This document shows positions 22,584 through 31,189 of a stretch of DNA of 42,603 nucleotides, piece by piece. The stretch lies in NCBI RefSeq assembly GCF_016907915.1, contig NZ_JAFBCW010000024.1, positions 1 to 42,603 of the forward strand. The letters are read 5' to 3'. Made by a program: the position numbers and the translations under genes. Positions within the stretch are counted from its first letter, which is position 1. Each line of letters starts with the position of its first letter. The notes beneath the pieces are model-generated. The model searched no databases. It saw only the letters and a program-made list of their open reading frames with translations, and was not told the origin of the DNA. Source of the stretch: Desulforadius tongensis. GTDB lineage: Bacteria; Bacillota; Desulfotomaculia; Desulfotomaculales; Desulfohalotomaculaceae.

Positions 22584-22604
22584 CCCCTACCCAGGCGGTA
22601 GGGG
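22584..22604 (-). terminator. Terminator of the hydrogenase operon
   Basis: A stem CCCCTACC / GGTAGGGG (22584-22591 with 22597-22604) lies just 3' of the last gene of the operon on the minus strand. The T tract is interrupted. Confidence 0.65.
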
Positions 22605-22607
22605 ATT

Positions 22608-22946
22608 TTATTTATAAAAGTTTAAAACCCTGGATATCTTACTCCGGTCCATATTGGGATAGAGCACATCATCTATCATCATCACCGCCCCCACTGCACA
22701 GGCGCCCATACAGCGAACCACTTCCAGGGCAAACATACCGTCCGCAGTTACTTCACCGGGTTTAATACCCAGCTCTTCACTGACAGCCTTGAGCACCTCC
22801 GATGAACCCCTTAAATAACAACTTGTTCCCAAGCATACGGCTATCCTATGCTTGGCCCGCTTTTCTTTCCTTAAGCTGCCGTTTTGCAACTCTTGTACCT
22901 GTTCGCAAACACCGGCACTGCACTGACAACAGTTTTTAACGTTCAC
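22608..22946 (-). CDS. Thioredoxin-like [2Fe-2S] protein (NuoE/HydC-like)
   Basis: A small protein of about 112 residues with a C-terminal thioredoxin-like [2Fe-2S] domain. The four ligands are in VCLGTSCYLRGS and RCMGACAVGAVM, as in the NuoE and HydC family. Its N-terminus adds a separate Cys cluster (CCQCSAGVC) followed by a basic stretch, which I do not recognise. The start is placed at GTG 22946, with AAGGAG 8 nt upstream; an earlier GTG overlaps that site. It is the last gene of the hydrogenase operon, after the SpoIIE-like phosphatase and sensory hydrogenase. It probably passes electrons to or from that module. Confidence 0.85.
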   Translation of the reverse strand: MNVKNCCQCSAGVCEQVQELQNGSLRKEKRAKHRIAVCLGTSCYLRGSSEVLKAVSEELGIKPGEVTADGMFALEVVRCMGACAVGAVMMIDDVLYPNMDRSKISRVLNFYK

Positions 22947-22972
22947 CAGTGACACTCCTTATCACCGCGCAT

Positions 22973-24124
22973 CTAATAATATTCCTCAGTAACTTTTTTC
23001 CCTTTATCCTTTAACGTGGCAATTAAATCACGTATTACATGCTGCTTATAAGTATATATGGCAGGAGCTTTCACCTCCTGCAGCGCGGGGTTTGTAGCAG
23101 TACCCACTATTATATGAATGTCATCCGCCTCCAGCAGTGCCGCTGCCAACCTGCTGGCCCCGTCCTTTTGTGACTTAAGTTCAGTTAAACTGGTGCCATA
23201 TTTTATGTGTTCCAATGCATACACCAGCGTCACAGCACCCTCGGTAACCAAATTAATGCCCGGCAGTATTCCAATGGGCGGGATGTTTTTGCAGTTAGAG
23301 GATAAATCCACAGCCACCTCTCGGCCCAACACCCGCCCTACAATATTACCTGTGGTTCCACCGCAGACAATCTTAATACCGGGCCCGTTCATTAATTTAT
23401 TTACCACCGTATAATCATCTTCTTTATTTTGCGGTGGTCCAATTAACATGGTAACCTGGCGCGGCTGGCGAGCCTTCACCACCACAATGCTGGCATCATC
23501 ACCGGGTTTTTCACCGTATAAGTTATAGCACAGCTGTTTGATTTCTTCCGCCCACTGGGCAGCATCTTTTTGAGGTGAGTACGTTTCCTCCAGGTGCCTG
23601 CCTACCCGTTCCCATCCCCATCCCATGTTCATTATATTGCCAATACCGGCATGCAGTACACCATCACTGACCATTACCAGCCAGTGGTCGTCCTGCATTT
23701 GAAAAAAATACTCTTTTATTTTTTTACCGCCGATACACCTGGAAATCTGGTGCGGTTTAATTAACCTGTTACTGCGGCCAACAAACACCGGTGGATTATC
23801 ATATTCTACTAAATAGGTTCTGCCATCGGTTCTTATCTGGGCGATGGAAAATGTGCTGTAAGCCAAGTTCCTCACCTTACATATGGGCAGGGTATGAGCC
23901 AGGGTTTCAATGACCTCATCTATATCCCCACCCATTTTCAGCATGGTGCCGGCGGTTTTAACGGTCAGCCGGGACAGTATATTAGCCTTGACTCCACTGC
24001 CCAAACCGTCCGAAACCACAACAATACTGGCATCGTCAGTGCGAACAATTTCTACACTGTCACCGCACAGTTCTTCATCATATTTTTTTAATTGGGCGAT
24101 GCCGTAATCCAAACGTATATTCAT
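22973..24124 (-). CDS. SpoIIE-family PP2C phosphatase linked to the sensory hydrogenase
   Basis: A predicted serine/threonine phosphatase of the SpoIIE/RsbU type in its N-terminal half (about 1-220). The metal-binding aspartates are in VVSDGLGSGVKAN, MVSDGVLHAG and GDDASIVVV. The C-terminal part (about 225-383) has LIGPPQNKEDDYTVV and IKIVCGGTTGNIV and matches no domain I can name. There is no signal peptide or membrane helix. It lies 7 nt after the sensory hydrogenase gene. Pairing of PAS-type [FeFe] hydrogenase with a PP2C phosphatase is known in clostridial hfs-like clusters and in putative sensory hydrogenase groups. Its phosphoprotein substrate is unknown. Confidence 0.85.
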   Translation of the reverse strand: MNIRLDYGIAQLKKYDEELCGDSVEIVRTDDASIVVVSDGLGSGVKANILSRLTVKTAGTMLKMGGDIDEVIETLAHTLPICKVRNLAYSTFSIAQIRTDGRTYLVEYDNPPVFVGRSNRLIKPHQISRCIGGKKIKEYFFQMQDDHWLVMVSDGVLHAGIGNIMNMGWGWERVGRHLEETYSPQKDAAQWAEEIKQLCYNLYGEKPGDDASIVVVKARQPRQVTMLIGPPQNKEDDYTVVNKLMNGPGIKIVCGGTTGNIVGRVLGREVAVDLSSNCKNIPPIGILPGINLVTEGAVTLVYALEHIKYGTSLTELKSQKDGASRLAAALLEADDIHIIVGTATNPALQEVKAPAIYTYKQHVIRDLIATLKDKGKKVTEEYY

Positions 24125-24131
24125 CGGCAGA

Positions 24132-25871
24132 TTACTCCTTCCGGGAAGGATCTTCTCGCATTAATTTGATTAACCTGCTCAGCTGTATTTTGCTTTCTGC
24201 GGTGGCTTCGCCCAATAACCCGGCAATTTCCTGGGCCACCTTCATTTGTTTTTCAATTACTTCTTGTGCCTGTACAATGGTTTGGTTTTTAATCAGTTCA
24301 AATTGTTCCCGCTGCCTTTTTTCTTCAGTAACATCTATAAATATACCCACCACAAGATTTTCCTGCTCCACCGGGAATATGATCTCACTGGTAACAATGT
24401 CCTTATCCGGGTAATCACAGCAAACATTTAGCATTTTACCGGAATTCATCACCCGGATAAAGTTCTCCGGGTTAATTACGGTATCCAATTTTTTGCCCAC
24501 CACATCCGCCCCGGAACAGCGGAACATCCTTTCAGCGGCGGGATTTATCTCCAATATGGTTTGAGTGCTGTCAATCACAATTATACCGTTGGGCATGGCC
24601 GCGGTTACTACATTGGAAAGGGATTCCGCCCGCTTGCGCATGTACGGTATACACATCTCTACCTCTGCTTTGCCCTGGTAAACAGCAATGGCTTTATCCC
24701 GGCAGGTATCATACCCGCAGGCGCCGCAGTTCAGCTCATCCTCCGGTTTATATTTACCTGTCCGGGCCAATATCTCCTGCAGTTCTGCTGCACTTGGATA
24801 GGCAGCATTTACCTTTCTGCACTGGTAACTTCTCTGCATCAGATGCCCGGGCAGCTGCTCATCAATACAATCATCACCGCGATTACTAACCGACTTATAA
24901 TAATCCTGCACCTTACGCCGGCGTACATAAAGGCTTTCATCGCGGCACATTGAAAGAGGACCGTTTATACAACCACCTTTACAAGCCAGGAGTTCTATTA
25001 ATTTCGGCTGCTTGCCGATTCCTCCACCGGCCAGGTGATGCAGAAAGTCTATACAATCATCCAACCCGCTAATAGATACAAAATCTTCTTCCGAACCGTT
25101 TAGGCCCTTGTTTATACATCTCAGCATACCGCCCTCCAGCGGAAAGAGACAGTTGGTCCCGGTGGGAGCATTATCAAAATTAGATGGAGTTAAATCATTT
25201 AAGTCAATGTTAAAATGCTTAACCAGATCCCATAACTCATCAAAACCAAGCACAAAATCCACAGCATCACTAATACCTGCTGTGGTATACTCTTCCTTCT
25301 TGGCCACACAGGGCCCTATAAATACAACTTTACACCGCGGATTATTGGCTTTAATGTAGCGCCCGTGGGCAATCATGGGGGAAACCACCGGCGCCAGCAT
25401 CGGTATCAGCTGGGGATAGTAGCGCTCCACCAGGTTAACTATCACAGGGCAGGAACTGCCAATTAAAGGTTTATCAAAACCCAGTTGAAAATGGTGCCGG
25501 ACCACCAGTCCGGCACCCACAGATGTTTCCTGTACAATATTGAAACCAATTTTTCTTAATAAATCGGGCATTAAACCCGGGTCTTTTAAGGGCAAACCAG
25601 CAACGAAGGATGGTGCCACCGCGGCAGCCAACAGTTCACCCCGCTCCAGAAGCCTTATTACCTCTGCCAGGTCATTGGACAACAGCTTCTTGGCATTCTG
25701 CGGGCAGGCCAGTATACAATTGCCGTCTTTAATGCACAGCTCATCTATTACCTTAACATGTAATGCGGCATTTTCCTTGTCAGAACTGATGGCAATGGCT
25801 TTAACGGGACATATTCTCACACAGCGGTAGCAGTCACGACACTTGGCTTCGTTGGTGGTAATTAAGCCCAT
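24132..25871 (-). CDS. Sensory-type [FeFe] hydrogenase with PAS domain
   Basis: A 579-residue, putatively H2-sensing hydrogenase. The N-terminal ferredoxin region has Cys11, 14, 17 and 21, then CIKDGNCILACP, where one ligand position is Asp49. The H-cluster domain keeps Cys141 (GSSCPV), Cys188 (IGPCVAKKEE), Cys297 and Cys301 (LACKGGCINGP). The proton-relay Cys of catalytic enzymes (TSCCP) is Ser140 here, and MPC is replaced by GPC. An extra Fe-S domain (NCGACGYDTC, with Cys407) and a PAS domain (about 418-530) follow, ending in a helical tail. These features match group C/HfsB-type sensory enzymes, not fast catalytic ones. It lies between hydA and the phosphatase gene. Confidence 0.9.
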   Translation of the reverse strand: MGLITTNEAKCRDCYRCVRICPVKAIAISSDKENAALHVKVIDELCIKDGNCILACPQNAKKLLSNDLAEVIRLLERGELLAAAVAPSFVAGLPLKDPGLMPDLLRKIGFNIVQETSVGAGLVVRHHFQLGFDKPLIGSSCPVIVNLVERYYPQLIPMLAPVVSPMIAHGRYIKANNPRCKVVFIGPCVAKKEEYTTAGISDAVDFVLGFDELWDLVKHFNIDLNDLTPSNFDNAPTGTNCLFPLEGGMLRCINKGLNGSEEDFVSISGLDDCIDFLHHLAGGGIGKQPKLIELLACKGGCINGPLSMCRDESLYVRRRKVQDYYKSVSNRGDDCIDEQLPGHLMQRSYQCRKVNAAYPSAAELQEILARTGKYKPEDELNCGACGYDTCRDKAIAVYQGKAEVEMCIPYMRKRAESLSNVVTAAMPNGIIVIDSTQTILEINPAAERMFRCSGADVVGKKLDTVINPENFIRVMNSGKMLNVCCDYPDKDIVTSEIIFPVEQENLVVGIFIDVTEEKRQREQFELIKNQTIVQAQEVIEKQMKVAQEIAGLLGEATAESKIQLSRLIKLMREDPSRKE

Positions 25872-25944: not shown

Positions 25945-27966
25945 TTAATTATTTGCTGCCAAATCCACTTTAATGGCCACATGAGTCTTAAAGATTTGTT
26001 CAGCATTTTCAGCGGTAACACCGGTAATAATTTCATCATCTACTCTTATTGAAACTCCCTGATCGCATTTTTCCAGGCAGAAGGTCCCGCTTAAGTGCAC
26101 GTAGCCCTCCAGTCCCAGCTGTTTGATTAACTCAGCAAACTTATTCATTATATCGTAGGAACCGCGCAGATAACAGCCGGTACCCACGCACACTGATACA
26201 TGCACAGAATCACCCTTTTCAGAAGTATTTATATCAATCGGCTTACCACTGATTCTTCTGCGTGGTGTATAGCTTGTATGCAAATCATGATGGGTACCGC
26301 TGGAAGCAGGCCCGCCAAACCACTCCTCCAGCACTTTATTTACATATACGTTGTCCTGGGCTTTATGCACCTGCTGTACCGCATCCAGATTGTAAATTTC
26401 TTTAATCCGGCGGATTCTGGCCGCTGTATCGTTAACATCCGGCTGCCCGCCGCCGCCAACACAGCCACCGGGACAGCTCATTACTTCTACCATATGATAA
26501 AACGCTTCACCGTTTTTAATACGCTGGATTAATTTTTCAGCGTTAGCTAAACCGTTAACCACAGCAATTTTAATGGTATTACCGTCAACCTCTACCTCCG
26601 CTTCTTTTATTCCTTTAATGCCGCGCACCGGGTAAAAGTCTACCCGGCCAACCCCTTCTCCACCGGTGTAACCGGCAACAAAGCGCACCACTGATTCGGC
26701 CACACCACCGGAGGCACCAAAAATCAAAGCGCCGCCGGAACCCATACCCAGCGGATTGTCGTAACCCACCGGGTCCAGTTCATCAAATATAATGCCTGCC
26801 TCTTTAATCATCTGTGCCAATTCCACGGTGGTTAGTACAACATCCACATCGGGATTTCCTTCAGTGGTAAATTCCGGCCGCCTGGCTTCAAACTTCTTGG
26901 CGGTACAGGGCATTATGGATATACACACAACATCGCCGGCTTCTTTTCCGATTCTTTTAGCGTAATGCTTTTTAACCATGGAACCAAACATCTGCTGGGG
27001 AGAACGGCAGCTGGATACATTCTCCAGCAGATCGGCATGGTTTTGTTCACAGTACTTAATCCAGGCCGGGCAGCATGATGTGAACAGGGGCAGCTTACCG
27101 CCGTTTTGTAAGCGGTTCATAAATTCCATGGACTCTTCAATGGTGGTCATATCGGCGGAGAACAGTGTATCAAATACTTTATCTACCCCCATCTTTTTCA
27201 GCGCTGCCACCATTTTACCTGTTACATCACCGGAGCTAAGGCCAAATTCTTCCCCCAGCGCCACCCTTACCGCCGGGGCAATTTGCACCACCACAGTTTT
27301 ATCAGGATTATAAATTGCCTCCCAGGCCTTATCAACTTCAGATTTTACTGTCAGTGCGCCGGTGGGACAAACAGCAACACACTGGCCGCAGTTTACGCAG
27401 GCCACCTCAGATAATTTTTTATCAAAGGCAGTGGTAACTTCCGTTTTGCTGCCCCGGTGGGCAAAATCCCAAACCCCTATGCCCTGAATTTCTTTACACA
27501 TCCGCACACAGTCACCGCAAAGAATGCATTTGTTGGGGTCTTTTACAATGCTGTCTGCAGATTCATCTATCGGCAGCTGTACATCACGGCTTCCAAAACG
27601 CACCCTGGTGATGCCGAATTGTTTAGCCAGTTTCTGTAATTTACAAGCAGTACTCTTGCTGCAGGTGGGACATTCCCGGTCATGATTTGCCAGCAGCAGC
27701 TCTATAATCATCCGGCGCAGCCGTCTTACCCGCTCGGTATTGGTGCGGATAACCATGCCGTCGATGGGAACGGTGGAACATGAAGCCACCAGCCCCATTT
27801 TTTCCACCTCCACCATACACAGGCGGCAGGCACCGTAAACACTTAACTCCGAATGGTAACAAAAGGTAGGTATTTCAATACCGATCCTACGCGCTAACTC
27901 TAAAATGTTTTTTGCACCGTTTATTTCTATAACCTGACCGTCTATGGTCACTTTGCCCGTACTCAT
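25945..27966 (-). CDS. hydA: NADH-linked [FeFe] hydrogenase catalytic subunit HydA
   Basis: The catalytic subunit of a trimeric, probably electron-bifurcating hydrogenase. Domains in order: [2Fe-2S] (Cys36, 47, 50, 63); His95-Cys99-Cys102-Cys108 [4Fe-4S]; two [4Fe-4S] clusters (Cys147/150/153/157 and Cys190/193/196/200); H-domain with FTSCCPAW (Cys298 proton relay, Cys299 ligand), IMPCTAKK (Cys354) and SCPGGCVGGGGQP (Cys498, Cys502); and a C-terminal thioredoxin-like [2Fe-2S] domain (CVGTGC and CLEKC, Cys593-634). All catalytic residues are intact. 673 residues. It follows hydB in the operon. Bifurcation with NADH and ferredoxin is inferred from the subunit set. Confidence 0.96.
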   Translation of the reverse strand: MSTGKVTIDGQVIEINGAKNILELARRIGIEIPTFCYHSELSVYGACRLCMVEVEKMGLVASCSTVPIDGMVIRTNTERVRRLRRMIIELLLANHDRECPTCSKSTACKLQKLAKQFGITRVRFGSRDVQLPIDESADSIVKDPNKCILCGDCVRMCKEIQGIGVWDFAHRGSKTEVTTAFDKKLSEVACVNCGQCVAVCPTGALTVKSEVDKAWEAIYNPDKTVVVQIAPAVRVALGEEFGLSSGDVTGKMVAALKKMGVDKVFDTLFSADMTTIEESMEFMNRLQNGGKLPLFTSCCPAWIKYCEQNHADLLENVSSCRSPQQMFGSMVKKHYAKRIGKEAGDVVCISIMPCTAKKFEARRPEFTTEGNPDVDVVLTTVELAQMIKEAGIIFDELDPVGYDNPLGMGSGGALIFGASGGVAESVVRFVAGYTGGEGVGRVDFYPVRGIKGIKEAEVEVDGNTIKIAVVNGLANAEKLIQRIKNGEAFYHMVEVMSCPGGCVGGGGQPDVNDTAARIRRIKEIYNLDAVQQVHKAQDNVYVNKVLEEWFGGPASSGTHHDLHTSYTPRRRISGKPIDINTSEKGDSVHVSVCVGTGCYLRGSYDIMNKFAELIKQLGLEGYVHLSGTFCLEKCDQGVSIRVDDEIITGVTAENAEQIFKTHVAIKVDLAANN

Positions 27967-28004: not shown

Positions 28005-29885
28005 TCATGCTCTGTAAATGGCGCCAAATTTACATTTATCCATACAGGTCCCGCACTTTGCACACTTGGAGGTATCAATGCTGTGCGGCTGTTTCTTTGC
28101 ACCGGAAATGGCTCCCACCGGGCAAACCCGTGCACAAAGCCCGCAGCCCTTACATTTTTCCGCATCAATGAAGTAATTCTGTAAGTCTTTACAAGCTCCG
28201 GCGGGACACTTCTTATCCCTTACATGAGCTTCATACTCATCTCTGAAGTAACGGAGTGTGGTTAAAACCGGATTCGGTGCCGTTTTACCCAAACCACACA
28301 GCGAACCATCCTGTACGATATATGCCAGCTCTTCCAGCAATGCCAGGTCTTCTTCCGTGGCCTGTCCTTTGGTAATGGCGGTGAGAATTTCCAGCATCCG
28401 CTTGGTTCCCTCACGGCAGGGAACGCACTTACCACAGGATTCACTTTGTACAAACCCCATAAAAAACTTGGCCACTTCCACCATACAAGTATCCTTACCC
28501 ATCACAACCAGACCACCGGATCCAATCATGGCACCGACTTTTTTCAGTTCATCGTAATCCAATTTCAGATCCAGGTGTTCTTTGGTTAAACAGCCACCGG
28601 ATGGGCCGCCGATTTGCACCGCTTTAAATTCCTTGCCGCCGGTTAAACCGCCGCCAATGTCAAAAACTATTTCCCTAAGCGTCATACCCATGGGTATTTC
28701 AACCAAACCGGTATGGGCAACTTGACCGGCAAGGGCAAAGGTTTTCGTGCCGGGACTGCCGGGGGTGCCAAAATCGCGGAACCACTTACCGCCTTTTAAC
28801 AGAATAGAGGGCAGGTTGGCCAAAGTTTCTACGTTGTTAATAATAGTGGGGCAGCCCCACAAGCCCTTGTTAGCTGGGAAAGGCGGCCTGGGGCGGGGCA
28901 TACCGCGCTGACCCTCGATGGATGCAATAAGGGCAGTTTCTTCACCGCATACAAAAGCACCGGCACCTTCTTTAATATTTATTTTGAATGAAAATCCCGA
29001 ACCAAGGATGTTTTCACCTAACAAACCAATCTCTTCAGCATCTGCTATGGCTTTTTTCAACCGTTTTACTGCCAGCGGGTATTCCGCCCTTACATATATG
29101 TAACCCTCATCAGCGCCGATGGCATAACCGGCAATCATCATACCTTCCAGCACCCGGTGGGGGTCACCTTCCATTACGCTGCGATCCATAAAGGCACCGG
29201 GATCTCCTTCGTCACCGTTACAGATAATATATTTCTTATCGCCCTGGGCCGCTGCTGCAAACTGCCATTTGCGACCGGTGGGGAAACCGCCGCCGCCGCG
29301 ACCGCGCAGACCGGAATCTAAAACTTCATTAATAACTTCTTCTGGTTTCATTTCCAGAAGAATTTTAGCAATAGCCTGGTAACCGTCGTGAGCTATATAA
29401 TCATAGATGTCATCGGGATTAATTCTACCGCAGTGTTCCAATGCCACCCTGGTTTGCTTTCGGTAAAAGGGTACTTCATCCTGGGTTTTGGCCACTTCCC
29501 CGGTTACAGGGTACTTGTACAGCAGTCTTTCAACTAACTGGCCATTCATTATATGCTGGTCTACTATGTCATCCACATCGGACTCTTTTACATGGTGGTA
29601 AAATACTCCCTCCGGCTCAATGCGCACCAGCGGGCCCATTTGACAAAAGCCGTGACAACCGCTGATGTTTACTGCACAGGGCTCATCTTCTTTTTCTTCC
29701 ATCAGCTGTACTTTAATATTTAAACCTTTTTCCTGCAGTTTTTTCTTTATTTTTTCATATACTTTTAATGAACCGCTGGCCACACACCCCGTACCAGCAC
29801 AAATTAAAATGCGCATTTTCTCTTTTCTCAACGCATCTTTGGTTTCTTTTTGCAATTGAATTAAATCTTCACGAGATTTAAGCAT
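28005..29885 (-). CDS. hydB: NADH-linked [FeFe] hydrogenase subunit HydB (NuoF-like)
   Basis: The NAD(H)- and FMN-binding subunit of the trimeric hydrogenase. The N-terminal thioredoxin-like [2Fe-2S] domain has CAGTGCVASGS and SGCHGFC. The NuoF core follows with RGRGGGGFPTGRKW and CNGDEGDPGAFMDRS, then the [4Fe-4S] motif ESCGKCVPCREGTKR. Two C-terminal ferredoxin clusters (CKGCGLCARVCPVGAI and CAKCGTCMDKC) complete it. 626 residues, full length. ATG follows AAGGAGG. Its layout matches HydB of electron-bifurcating enzymes such as those of Thermotoga and Moorella. Confidence 0.96.
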   Translation of the reverse strand: MLKSREDLIQLQKETKDALRKEKMRILICAGTGCVASGSLKVYEKIKKKLQEKGLNIKVQLMEEKEDEPCAVNISGCHGFCQMGPLVRIEPEGVFYHHVKESDVDDIVDQHIMNGQLVERLLYKYPVTGEVAKTQDEVPFYRKQTRVALEHCGRINPDDIYDYIAHDGYQAIAKILLEMKPEEVINEVLDSGLRGRGGGGFPTGRKWQFAAAAQGDKKYIICNGDEGDPGAFMDRSVMEGDPHRVLEGMMIAGYAIGADEGYIYVRAEYPLAVKRLKKAIADAEEIGLLGENILGSGFSFKINIKEGAGAFVCGEETALIASIEGQRGMPRPRPPFPANKGLWGCPTIINNVETLANLPSILLKGGKWFRDFGTPGSPGTKTFALAGQVAHTGLVEIPMGMTLREIVFDIGGGLTGGKEFKAVQIGGPSGGCLTKEHLDLKLDYDELKKVGAMIGSGGLVVMGKDTCMVEVAKFFMGFVQSESCGKCVPCREGTKRMLEILTAITKGQATEEDLALLEELAYIVQDGSLCGLGKTAPNPVLTTLRYFRDEYEAHVRDKKCPAGACKDLQNYFIDAEKCKGCGLCARVCPVGAISGAKKQPHSIDTSKCAKCGTCMDKCKFGAIYRA

Positions 29886-29921: not shown

Positions 29922-30407
29922 CTATGCTTCTGACGCTCTAAGCCTATTAACAACTTCTAAAATTCCTTCCGGGGTCATCTGTCCATATACTTCAGTTTCA
30001 TTTACTGTTACTACCGGAGCTAAACCACAGGCCCCCAAGCAGGACACTCTTTCTACGGTAAACTGCAGATCTTCAGTAGTTGACTGGCTGTCATCCAATT
30101 TTAATTCTTTTTTTACAGCAAAGTTAATCGGTTCAGATCCCCGCACGTGACAGGCTGTGCCGTCACAGATTCTTATTACATATTTACCCTTGGGAATAAG
30201 TGAAAACTGAGCATAAAAAGTAGCTACCCCAAATACCGCTGCCGGAGGAAGTTTCATGGCCGTTGCAATATAGGTAAGTACCTCTTCTGGAAGATAGCGG
30301 TATTCTCCCTGTACTTCCTGCAGGATAGGAATAAGATGCGAAGCCTTTCCCTCGTGCTTGTCAATAATTTGCTGAAGTTTTTGAAATTTTCTTTGCGGCG
30401 ATTCCAT
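29922..30407 (-). CDS. hydC: NADH-linked [FeFe] hydrogenase subunit HydC (NuoE-like)
   Basis: The small [2Fe-2S] subunit that partners HydB. It has the NuoE helical N-terminus (IPILQEVQGEYRYLPEEV), GVATFYAQFSLIPKGKY, and the four ligands in ICDGTACHVRGS and SCLGACGLAPVV. 161 residues, a normal size. The start ATG follows AAGGGGG. It is the first structural gene of the hydrogenase operon, 44 nt after the XRE-cupin regulator gene. Confidence 0.96.
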   Translation of the reverse strand: MESPQRKFQKLQQIIDKHEGKASHLIPILQEVQGEYRYLPEEVLTYIATAMKLPPAAVFGVATFYAQFSLIPKGKYVIRICDGTACHVRGSEPINFAVKKELKLDDSQSTTEDLQFTVERVSCLGACGLAPVVTVNETEVYGQMTPEGILEVVNRLRASEA

Positions 30408-30451: not shown

Positions 30452-31003
30452 TTATATTCCAGGTGGACTAACCACCCATAAACCGATAACTTTTTCCTGA
30501 CCAATATTTTTAAAACCGGTGGGATTGTCGAAAATAAAATAGGCTGCATCGCCTTCTTCTACAACATATTTTGTGTTTTTTACGGTTACTTCTACCTTGC
30601 CTTGAAAAACATATATAAAATCCTCATGGGATCCGGAAAATAAAGAAAGATCCGTTTTTTCTTCTCCCACTTCCAGCTCAAAAACCAACGGCTGCATTTT
30701 TTTATTCCTGGTTCCTAAAAAAGCAAGCATTTCCAGCTTGACCTTTTCATTGTTCGAGGCTAAACGCTTACGGTTATTTTTCCTTACTATCACCCACTCT
30801 TCGGGAAGTTCTTCCTCAATCAGCAGACTGATATTGGTATTTAGCGCACCGGCTATGCTTTTTAACGTGGAAAAGGACGGCGAAACTTTATTTTGTTCCA
30901 ATTGATAAATAAAACTGGCTGTTACACCCACCTGCCGGGCCAACTGCCTCACACTTAAATTGTTATTTAAACGCAGCTGTTTAATTCTTTCTCCCAGTGA
31001 CAT
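30452..31003 (-). CDS. XRE-family regulator with cupin domain
   Basis: A 183-residue transcription factor. The N-terminal HTH is LGERIKQLRLNNNLSVRQLA, then VGVTASFIYQLEQNKVSPS. The C-terminal cupin domain is at about 110-180 (GSHEDFIYVFQGKVEVTV, EEGDAAYFIFDNPTGFKN). Such proteins sense a small molecule in the cupin and bind DNA as dimers. The start is ATG 31003, with AGGGGGCG spaced correctly; an upstream ATG in frame lacks a site. It is the first gene of the hydrogenase operon and probably regulates it and itself. The ligand is unknown. Confidence 0.9.
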   Translation of the reverse strand: MSLGERIKQLRLNNNLSVRQLARQVGVTASFIYQLEQNKVSPSFSTLKSIAGALNTNISLLIEEELPEEWVIVRKNNRKRLASNNEKVKLEMLAFLGTRNKKMQPLVFELEVGEEKTDLSLFSGSHEDFIYVFQGKVEVTVKNTKYVVEEGDAAYFIFDNPTGFKNIGQEKVIGLWVVSPPGI

Positions 31004-31054
31004 TGTCGCCCCCTGTTTCACGCTTTAGAAAAATCTGAATATTTGTTGTTTTTT

Positions 31055-31084
31055 ATTATATTCTGTATACTTTACAAGTGTCAA
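31055..31084 (-). promoter_or_regulatory. Sigma-A promoter of the hydrogenase operon
   Basis: The minus strand reads a perfect TTGACA (31079-31084), an 18-nt spacer and a perfect TATAAT (31055-31060). The spacer contains the palindrome GTATAC, which a repressor could use. It is followed by the XRE-cupin gene. Confidence 0.8.
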
Positions 31085-31189
31085 GTAATTCTTTATATTT
31101 TAAATTTATTGTTATTTTAGGTTAATTAATAATATAAATCAGTCAATTAGACGACATTTATCCCATTAAATACCAAATTTTTTACCGGT

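Follow-up and report, generated by a model that had tools for sequence, protein, structure and literature searches.

A putative H2-sensing unit of sensory [FeFe] hydrogenase, phosphatase and [2Fe-2S] protein in the HydABC operon of Desulforadius tongensis

Why should an operon for a bifurcating-type hydrogenase also carry a second, sensory-type [FeFe] hydrogenase (HydS), followed at once by a SpoIIE-type phosphatase and a small [2Fe-2S] protein? We addressed this question in a stretch of 42,603 nucleotides (nt) from Desulforadius tongensis (NZ_JAFBCW010000024.1 positions 1-42,603, assembly GCF_016907915.1; hereafter the window), in which the genes concerned are all on the minus strand. In most anaerobic communities, the course that fermentation takes is set by the H2 level, and the deletion of a HydS of this kind has already been used to increase ethanol yield. 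A previous sequence-only reading had placed the three genes within 22608-25871, which we confirm (hydS at 24132-25871, the phosphatase gene at 22973-24124 and the [2Fe-2S] protein gene at 22608-22955), and had proposed that they turn H2 or redox state into the dephosphorylation of a target. On balance, we favor the view that the three proteins form one H2- or redox-sensing unit, with its end effect on the hydrogenase of their own operon.

A constant pair of HydS and phosphatase

Across phyla, HydS and the phosphatase appear inseparable. A scan of named genomes gave 581 coding loci, 80 of which were kept for neighborhood analysis, and in 79 of these the phosphatase is preceded by a HydS match that ends no more than 700 nt away; in the sole unpaired locus, the phosphatase starts at base 73 of its contig, being cut by the contig end. 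The paired loci span Bacillota, Planctomycetota, Desulfomonilaceae, Calditrichales and others, and the best named match to the phosphatase is an 87% identical protein from a Desulfotomaculum metagenome assembly. Within the class, 47 of 113 genomes have the phosphatase, and with HydS immediately ahead of it in nearly every named locus, the module is not a chance arrangement. This pairing, together with active sites that look intact in both proteins, makes a predicted unit from sensor to dephosphorylation well supported. That part of the earlier proposal stands, whereas the Ser residue that it took as a sensor marker does not hold, and the partner search that it suggested gave no dedicated partner, as set out below.

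HydS (24132-25871; 579 amino acids [aa]; putatively sensory) comprises two N-terminal ferredoxin motifs (2x[4Fe-4S]), an H-domain (residues 82-305), an FeS domain (380-409; PF04060, with an exact CX2CX4CX16C motif at 382-407) and a PAS domain (425-516), the last being the addition that had been noted from the letters alone. Set beside TmHydS and TamHydS, this architecture is of the sensor type. Our alignment combined 32 catalytic relatives with 68 HydS encoded immediately ahead of a phosphatase. The four H-cluster cysteines, which were said to be kept, are found in the alignment as C141, C188, C297 and C301; each is retained in 67 of the 68 phosphatase-paired sequences, and the CX2CX4CX16C motif is retained in the same number. 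The Ser in place of the proton-relay Cys is also present (Ser140, at the C299 position), but this position varies among the paired HydS (C in 26, A in 19, S in 13, other residues in the remainder), so that Ser is one of several variants and is not diagnostic of a sensor. A published survey of sensory hydrogenases (PMC10055695) describes the C299 position as variable as well, 17% having cysteine and about 10% serine. Two further positions are substituted, namely Met353, which is Gly186 here and Gly in 66 of the 68, and Met497, which is Leu295. Separately, Asp49 replaces one cysteine ligand of the second N-terminal [4Fe-4S] cluster, as it does in 14 of the 68 relatives.

The phosphatase gene (22973-24124; 383 aa) begins 7 nt downstream of hydS on the same strand, from which we infer that the two are co-transcribed. 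Its residues 1-218 (23471-24124) match SpoIIE and PP2C_2 and have a fold closest to SpoIIE/RsbU/RsbX, while the metal-binding acids of PP2C enzymes (D22, D39 in D39-G40, D154 in D154-G155, and D209-D210) are invariant across 60 sequences; both features are those of a SpoIIE-type PP2C/PPM phosphatase. The PP2C fold and conserved acidic residues are thus shared with SpoIIE, RsbU and RsbX, from which the protein differs in having an extra C-terminal domain, in having no STAS or anti-sigma gene nearby, and in residues 20-22, which read CGD where the SpoIIE of this genome has SGD. The Cys of this motif, near-invariant and beside the metal-binding D22, is a possible redox-sensitive site.

The remaining 165 residues (219-383; 22976-23470) form a second, alpha/beta domain in a confident structure model (predicted local distance difference test, pLDDT, 90.9). 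Sequence searches of Pfam, PHROG and PDB placed it in no family and gave no significant relative, and Foldseek returned nothing at E <= 0.001. The viral contigs searched gave no relative. VIA-align gave scores of up to Z 8.6 (root-mean-square deviation 3.6, 115 aligned) to domains of molybdopterin-type enzymes and of complex I NuoG, with methylglyoxal-synthase-like folds ranking lower; fold matches of this middling level can reflect only a common arrangement and point to no function. The domain is present in 122 of the 398 genomes of the phylum, almost invariably as part of the phosphatase, and as a phosphatase domain covered by no family library, it is a new element here.

The third member of the module (22608-22955; 115 aa) is a thioredoxin-like [2Fe-2S] ferredoxin, with a PF01257 domain and four cluster cysteines as C-X4-C and C-X3-C ligands. 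It is likely the counterpart of HfsA, judging from gene order and from the reported likeness of HfsA to part of the large hydrogenase subunits.

The shared operon and its candidate regulator

On the minus strand, the genes form an unbroken run, XRE-hydC-hydB-hydA-hydS-phosphatase-[2Fe-2S], with intergenic gaps of 44, 36, 38, 73, 7 and 17 nt in that order; the 7-26 nt initially given for the gaps within the module is thereby borne out for the first, with the second measured at 17 nt. A sigma-70-type promoter for the whole operon (TTGACA-18-TATAAT, 12 of 12 consensus positions; 31055-31084, minus strand) precedes the XRE gene, as the same promoter arrangement does in relatives, and a terminator-like hairpin with a T-rich tail (22584-22604, minus strand) lies directly 3' of the last gene. 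Both of these come from consensus scans, which alone prove nothing, but gaps, promoter and hairpin agree and fit a single transcription unit from the XRE gene to the [2Fe-2S] gene, in keeping with the earlier claim that the module shares an operon with a bifurcating-type hydrogenase. That hydrogenase comprises HydC (29922-30407; NuoE-like [2Fe-2S] subunit), HydB (28005-29885; NuoF-like flavoprotein subunit) and HydA (25945-27966; catalytic [FeFe] hydrogenase, TSCCP kept), and is of the bifurcating (group A) type by sequence.

The first gene of the operon (30452-31021) encodes a regulator that combines an XRE-family helix-turn-helix with a cupin domain. Seventeen orthologues were found in the class (E below 1e-50), 16 of them in phosphatase-bearing genomes (hypergeometric p 1.6e-6, uncorrected for ancestry) and 13 within 8 kb of the phosphatase, in one of two positions: before hydCBA-hydS-phosphatase, or directly before hydS-phosphatase. 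From the promoter here and two other loci (L062 and L083), we derived the palindrome CTTNACA-N2-TGTNAAG, and the motif was tested on eight genomes with an XRE orthologue, six of which lay outside its derivation. Every one of the eight has it 48-105 nt ahead of the XRE gene, and six of them, including the D. tongensis genome, have it nowhere else; chance would give about 0.2 palindromes per genome, and a reversed control pattern occurred 0 times. In the window, the predicted operator reads CTTGACA-CT-TGTAAAG (31070-31085, on neither strand in particular) and overlaps the -35 box, for which reason the simple reading is that the XRE-cupin protein would act as an autorepressor. New here, then, is a putatively dedicated XRE-cupin regulator with one predicted binding site in the genome, on the promoter of its own operon.

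A proposed signal route and its alternatives

In the route we propose, HydS would bind H2 at its H-cluster, and an electron or structural signal, relayed by the C-terminal [4Fe-4S] cluster and by the PAS domain, would gate the SpoIIE-type phosphatase, while the small [2Fe-2S] protein would serve as electron partner. The phosphatase would then dephosphorylate a target, which would ultimately alter how much of the operon's own hydrogenase is present (or how active it is). In Thermoanaerobacterium saccharolyticum, adhE transcripts rise 2-3 fold upon the deletion of hfsA or hfsB and hydrogenase activity rises upon the deletion of hfsB, while adhE is unchanged and no high-ethanol state follows upon the loss of hfsC or hfsD (PMC5707799). 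These phenotypes fit a HydS and a small protein that restrain the phosphatase arm. As hfsD overexpression in a background lacking hfsABCD gives the same phenotype (PMC11837493), the phosphatase seems to work by setting how much hydrogenase there is or how active it is. Further, the sensory-hydrogenase cluster of Ruminococcus albus is down 111-fold in co-culture, which its authors attribute to the H2 level (PMC6776011).

Several points weigh against this route. First, the ethanol phenotype of hfsD overexpression arises in T. thermosaccharolyticum without hfsC (PMC11837493), so that the phosphatase is dispensable when the hydrogenase is provided. Second, HydS homologues show some turnover, and it is possible that redox state is reported through electron flow instead of H2 binding. 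Third, the 80 neighborhoods yielded neither a target nor a partner kinase. Fourth, one half of the palindrome is the -35 hexamer, the conservation of which may be a promoter constraint alone, an explanation that does not extend to the other half. Finally, the XRE gene is limited to some lineages and therefore cannot be the general target of the phosphatase. That the signal ends at the XRE-cupin protein or its regulation is the most speculative step and we hold it doubtful. The full circuit, from HydS through the phosphatase to an operon-specific XRE-cupin repressor at a single operator, in which Ser/Thr dephosphorylation would adjust the hydrogenase operon to H2 without a histidine kinase, is somewhat more doubtful still.

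The sequence-only reading had suggested a search for a partner kinase or anti-sigma protein elsewhere in the genome; run in this genome, that search gave no dedicated partner. Beside the module, genes for kinases, anti-sigma factors or STAS proteins do not recur (the 80 neighborhoods together contain a single SpoIIAB-like and a single PrkC-like frame), and no dedicated STAS and HATPase genes adjoin the phosphatase, as in an RsbU/RsbV/RsbW-type switch, either in the window operon or recurrently in those neighborhoods. The D. tongensis genome (99.6% complete) has one SpoIIAA/SpoIIAB pair, after which a sigma factor is encoded (the sigma operon), one Hanks-type kinase (PrkC) and three SpoIIE-type phosphatases. 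Dedicated partner-switch genes in this genome are ruled out, the SpoIIAA/SpoIIAB pair being the only one found.

Those general kinases are the basis of the alternative that survives best, although we consider it unlikely, namely that the phosphatase serves a general Ser phosphorylation system (PrkC substrates, or SpoIIAA~P in sporulation), with H2 affecting global physiology or sporulation and not the operon itself. In its favor, the phosphatase domain is SpoIIE-like, the genome encodes a single SpoIIAB-type kinase, paired with a single STAS protein, and a single PrkC, and both kinase types are present in all 62 phosphatase-bearing genomes tested; as none of the 62 lacks either type, the comparison is uninformative and both stay candidates for the counterpart of the phosphatase. 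However, nearly every genome of this sort encodes PrkC and SpoIIAB, so that finding them says little, and the phosphatase, which is not encoded next to those kinases, is also found in Planctomycetota, Desulfomonilaceae and Calditrichales, groups in which, to our knowledge, sporulation is not known.

An improbable alternative is a two-armed switch on one target, in which a group D HydS with an RsbW-like HATPase would be the kinase arm and a group C3 HydS with the phosphatase the opposing arm. The small HATPase gene lies directly before that of a PAS-less HydS in 15 of 16 loci checked, among DRTGG, PHP and HydC genes, and its position beside TamHydS is on record (PMC8163306). Further, across the phylum, 91 of 122 phosphatase-bearing genomes have the HATPase vs 78 of 276 others (odds ratio 7.5), a co-occurrence that ignores shared ancestry and shared H2 metabolism, and the protein is itself a putative kinase. 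The HATPase is missing, however, from the D. tongensis genome and from 30 other phosphatase-bearing genomes, and as a partner here it is ruled out. In many clostridia (L162-L177), these genes form a conserved set in the order DRTGG, RsbW-like HATPase, PAS-less HydS, DRTGG, PHP, HydC, HATPase, [2Fe-2S] and HydB.

Little likelihood likewise attaches to a direct action on the bifurcating hydrogenase, in which the C-terminal domain of the phosphatase would dock on HydABC and enzyme activity would be adjusted. What speaks for it comes from one related genus (g27), four examined genomes of which have free-standing copies of this domain, about 35% identical, directly after hydA of a hydCBA set (L049:7875-8333, L050:8123-8599, L051:7898-8353 and L052:7947-8414), with the HydS-phosphatase pair located elsewhere. 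Yet many HydS-phosphatase loci have no hydCBA nearby, the fold matches of the domain indicate no function, and we know of no phosphorylation of HydABC. Very unlikely, finally, is a role of HydS and the [2Fe-2S] protein as working electron-transfer parts of the hydrogenase with the phosphatase as a passenger or in an unrelated role, for although HydS keeps every H-cluster ligand and sensory homologues still show measurable turnover (PMC10055695, PMC8163306), the phosphatase is the constant neighbor of HydS even without hydCBA, the Met353 position is almost always Gly, and there is genetic evidence of regulation (PMC5707799).

Related modules and other sensory hydrogenases

Judged on its gene and domain content, the module is of HydDB [FeFe] group C3, "phosphatase-linked (putative)", and of the hfsABC type, which is widespread and already named as a putative H2 sensor. 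As in that group (PMC5037454), a HydS with an H-domain and a PAS domain is encoded directly before a Ser/Thr phosphatase; here, the H-cluster domain has its four cysteines, the PAS domain follows the C-terminal [4Fe-4S] motif, and the phosphatase gene is 7 nt downstream. The operon differs in adding the XRE-cupin regulator with its predicted operator and in placing the [2Fe-2S] gene after the pair, not before, neither of which excludes it from the group. Elsewhere, the commonest order is [2Fe-2S]-HydS-phosphatase, then hydCBA or a single hydrogenase, and Rex was recognized in 8 loci. Specific, cheap tests of the signal relay in group C3 follow from the one predicted operator, from the unnamed phosphatase domain and from the lack of a dedicated kinase.

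Related hfs-like sets are known, as the sequence-only reading had stated. The hfsABCD genes of Thermoanaerobacterium (PMC5707799, PMC11837493) and hydS/hydA2 of R. albus (PMC6776011) share the series of small protein, PAS-containing HydS, phosphatase and hydrogenase in one operon, but theirs is a ferredoxin-linked HfsD/HydA2, whereas the three-subunit HydABC lies upstream here. TmHydS of Thermotoga maritima (PMC10055695) has a domain order of the same kind and Gly at the Met353 position, and differs at the Met497 position, which is Ser (S267) in TmHydS and Leu here. TamHydS (PMC8163306, PMC13104023) shares the CX2CX4CX16C motif, an altered proton path and adjoining bifurcating hydrogenase genes; it belongs to the PAS-less group D (M2e), from which the PAS domain sets our HydS apart, and stands beside an RsbW-like HATPase instead of a phosphatase.

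The D. tongensis genome encodes two further sensory-type [FeFe] hydrogenases. One of 800 aa (C11:54694-57093, plus strand; L007:1270-3669) has an FeS domain fused to GGDEF and HD-GYP domains. The [FeFe] sensors in HydDB are kinase-, chemotaxis- or phosphatase-linked, with none linked to cyclic di-GMP (PMC5037454), and our literature search found no report of a cyclic di-GMP-linked [FeFe] sensory hydrogenase. The other (contig C26, minus strand; L152:3065-5062) carries an MCP signaling domain, adjoins an MCP-like gene and resembles HydDB group C2.

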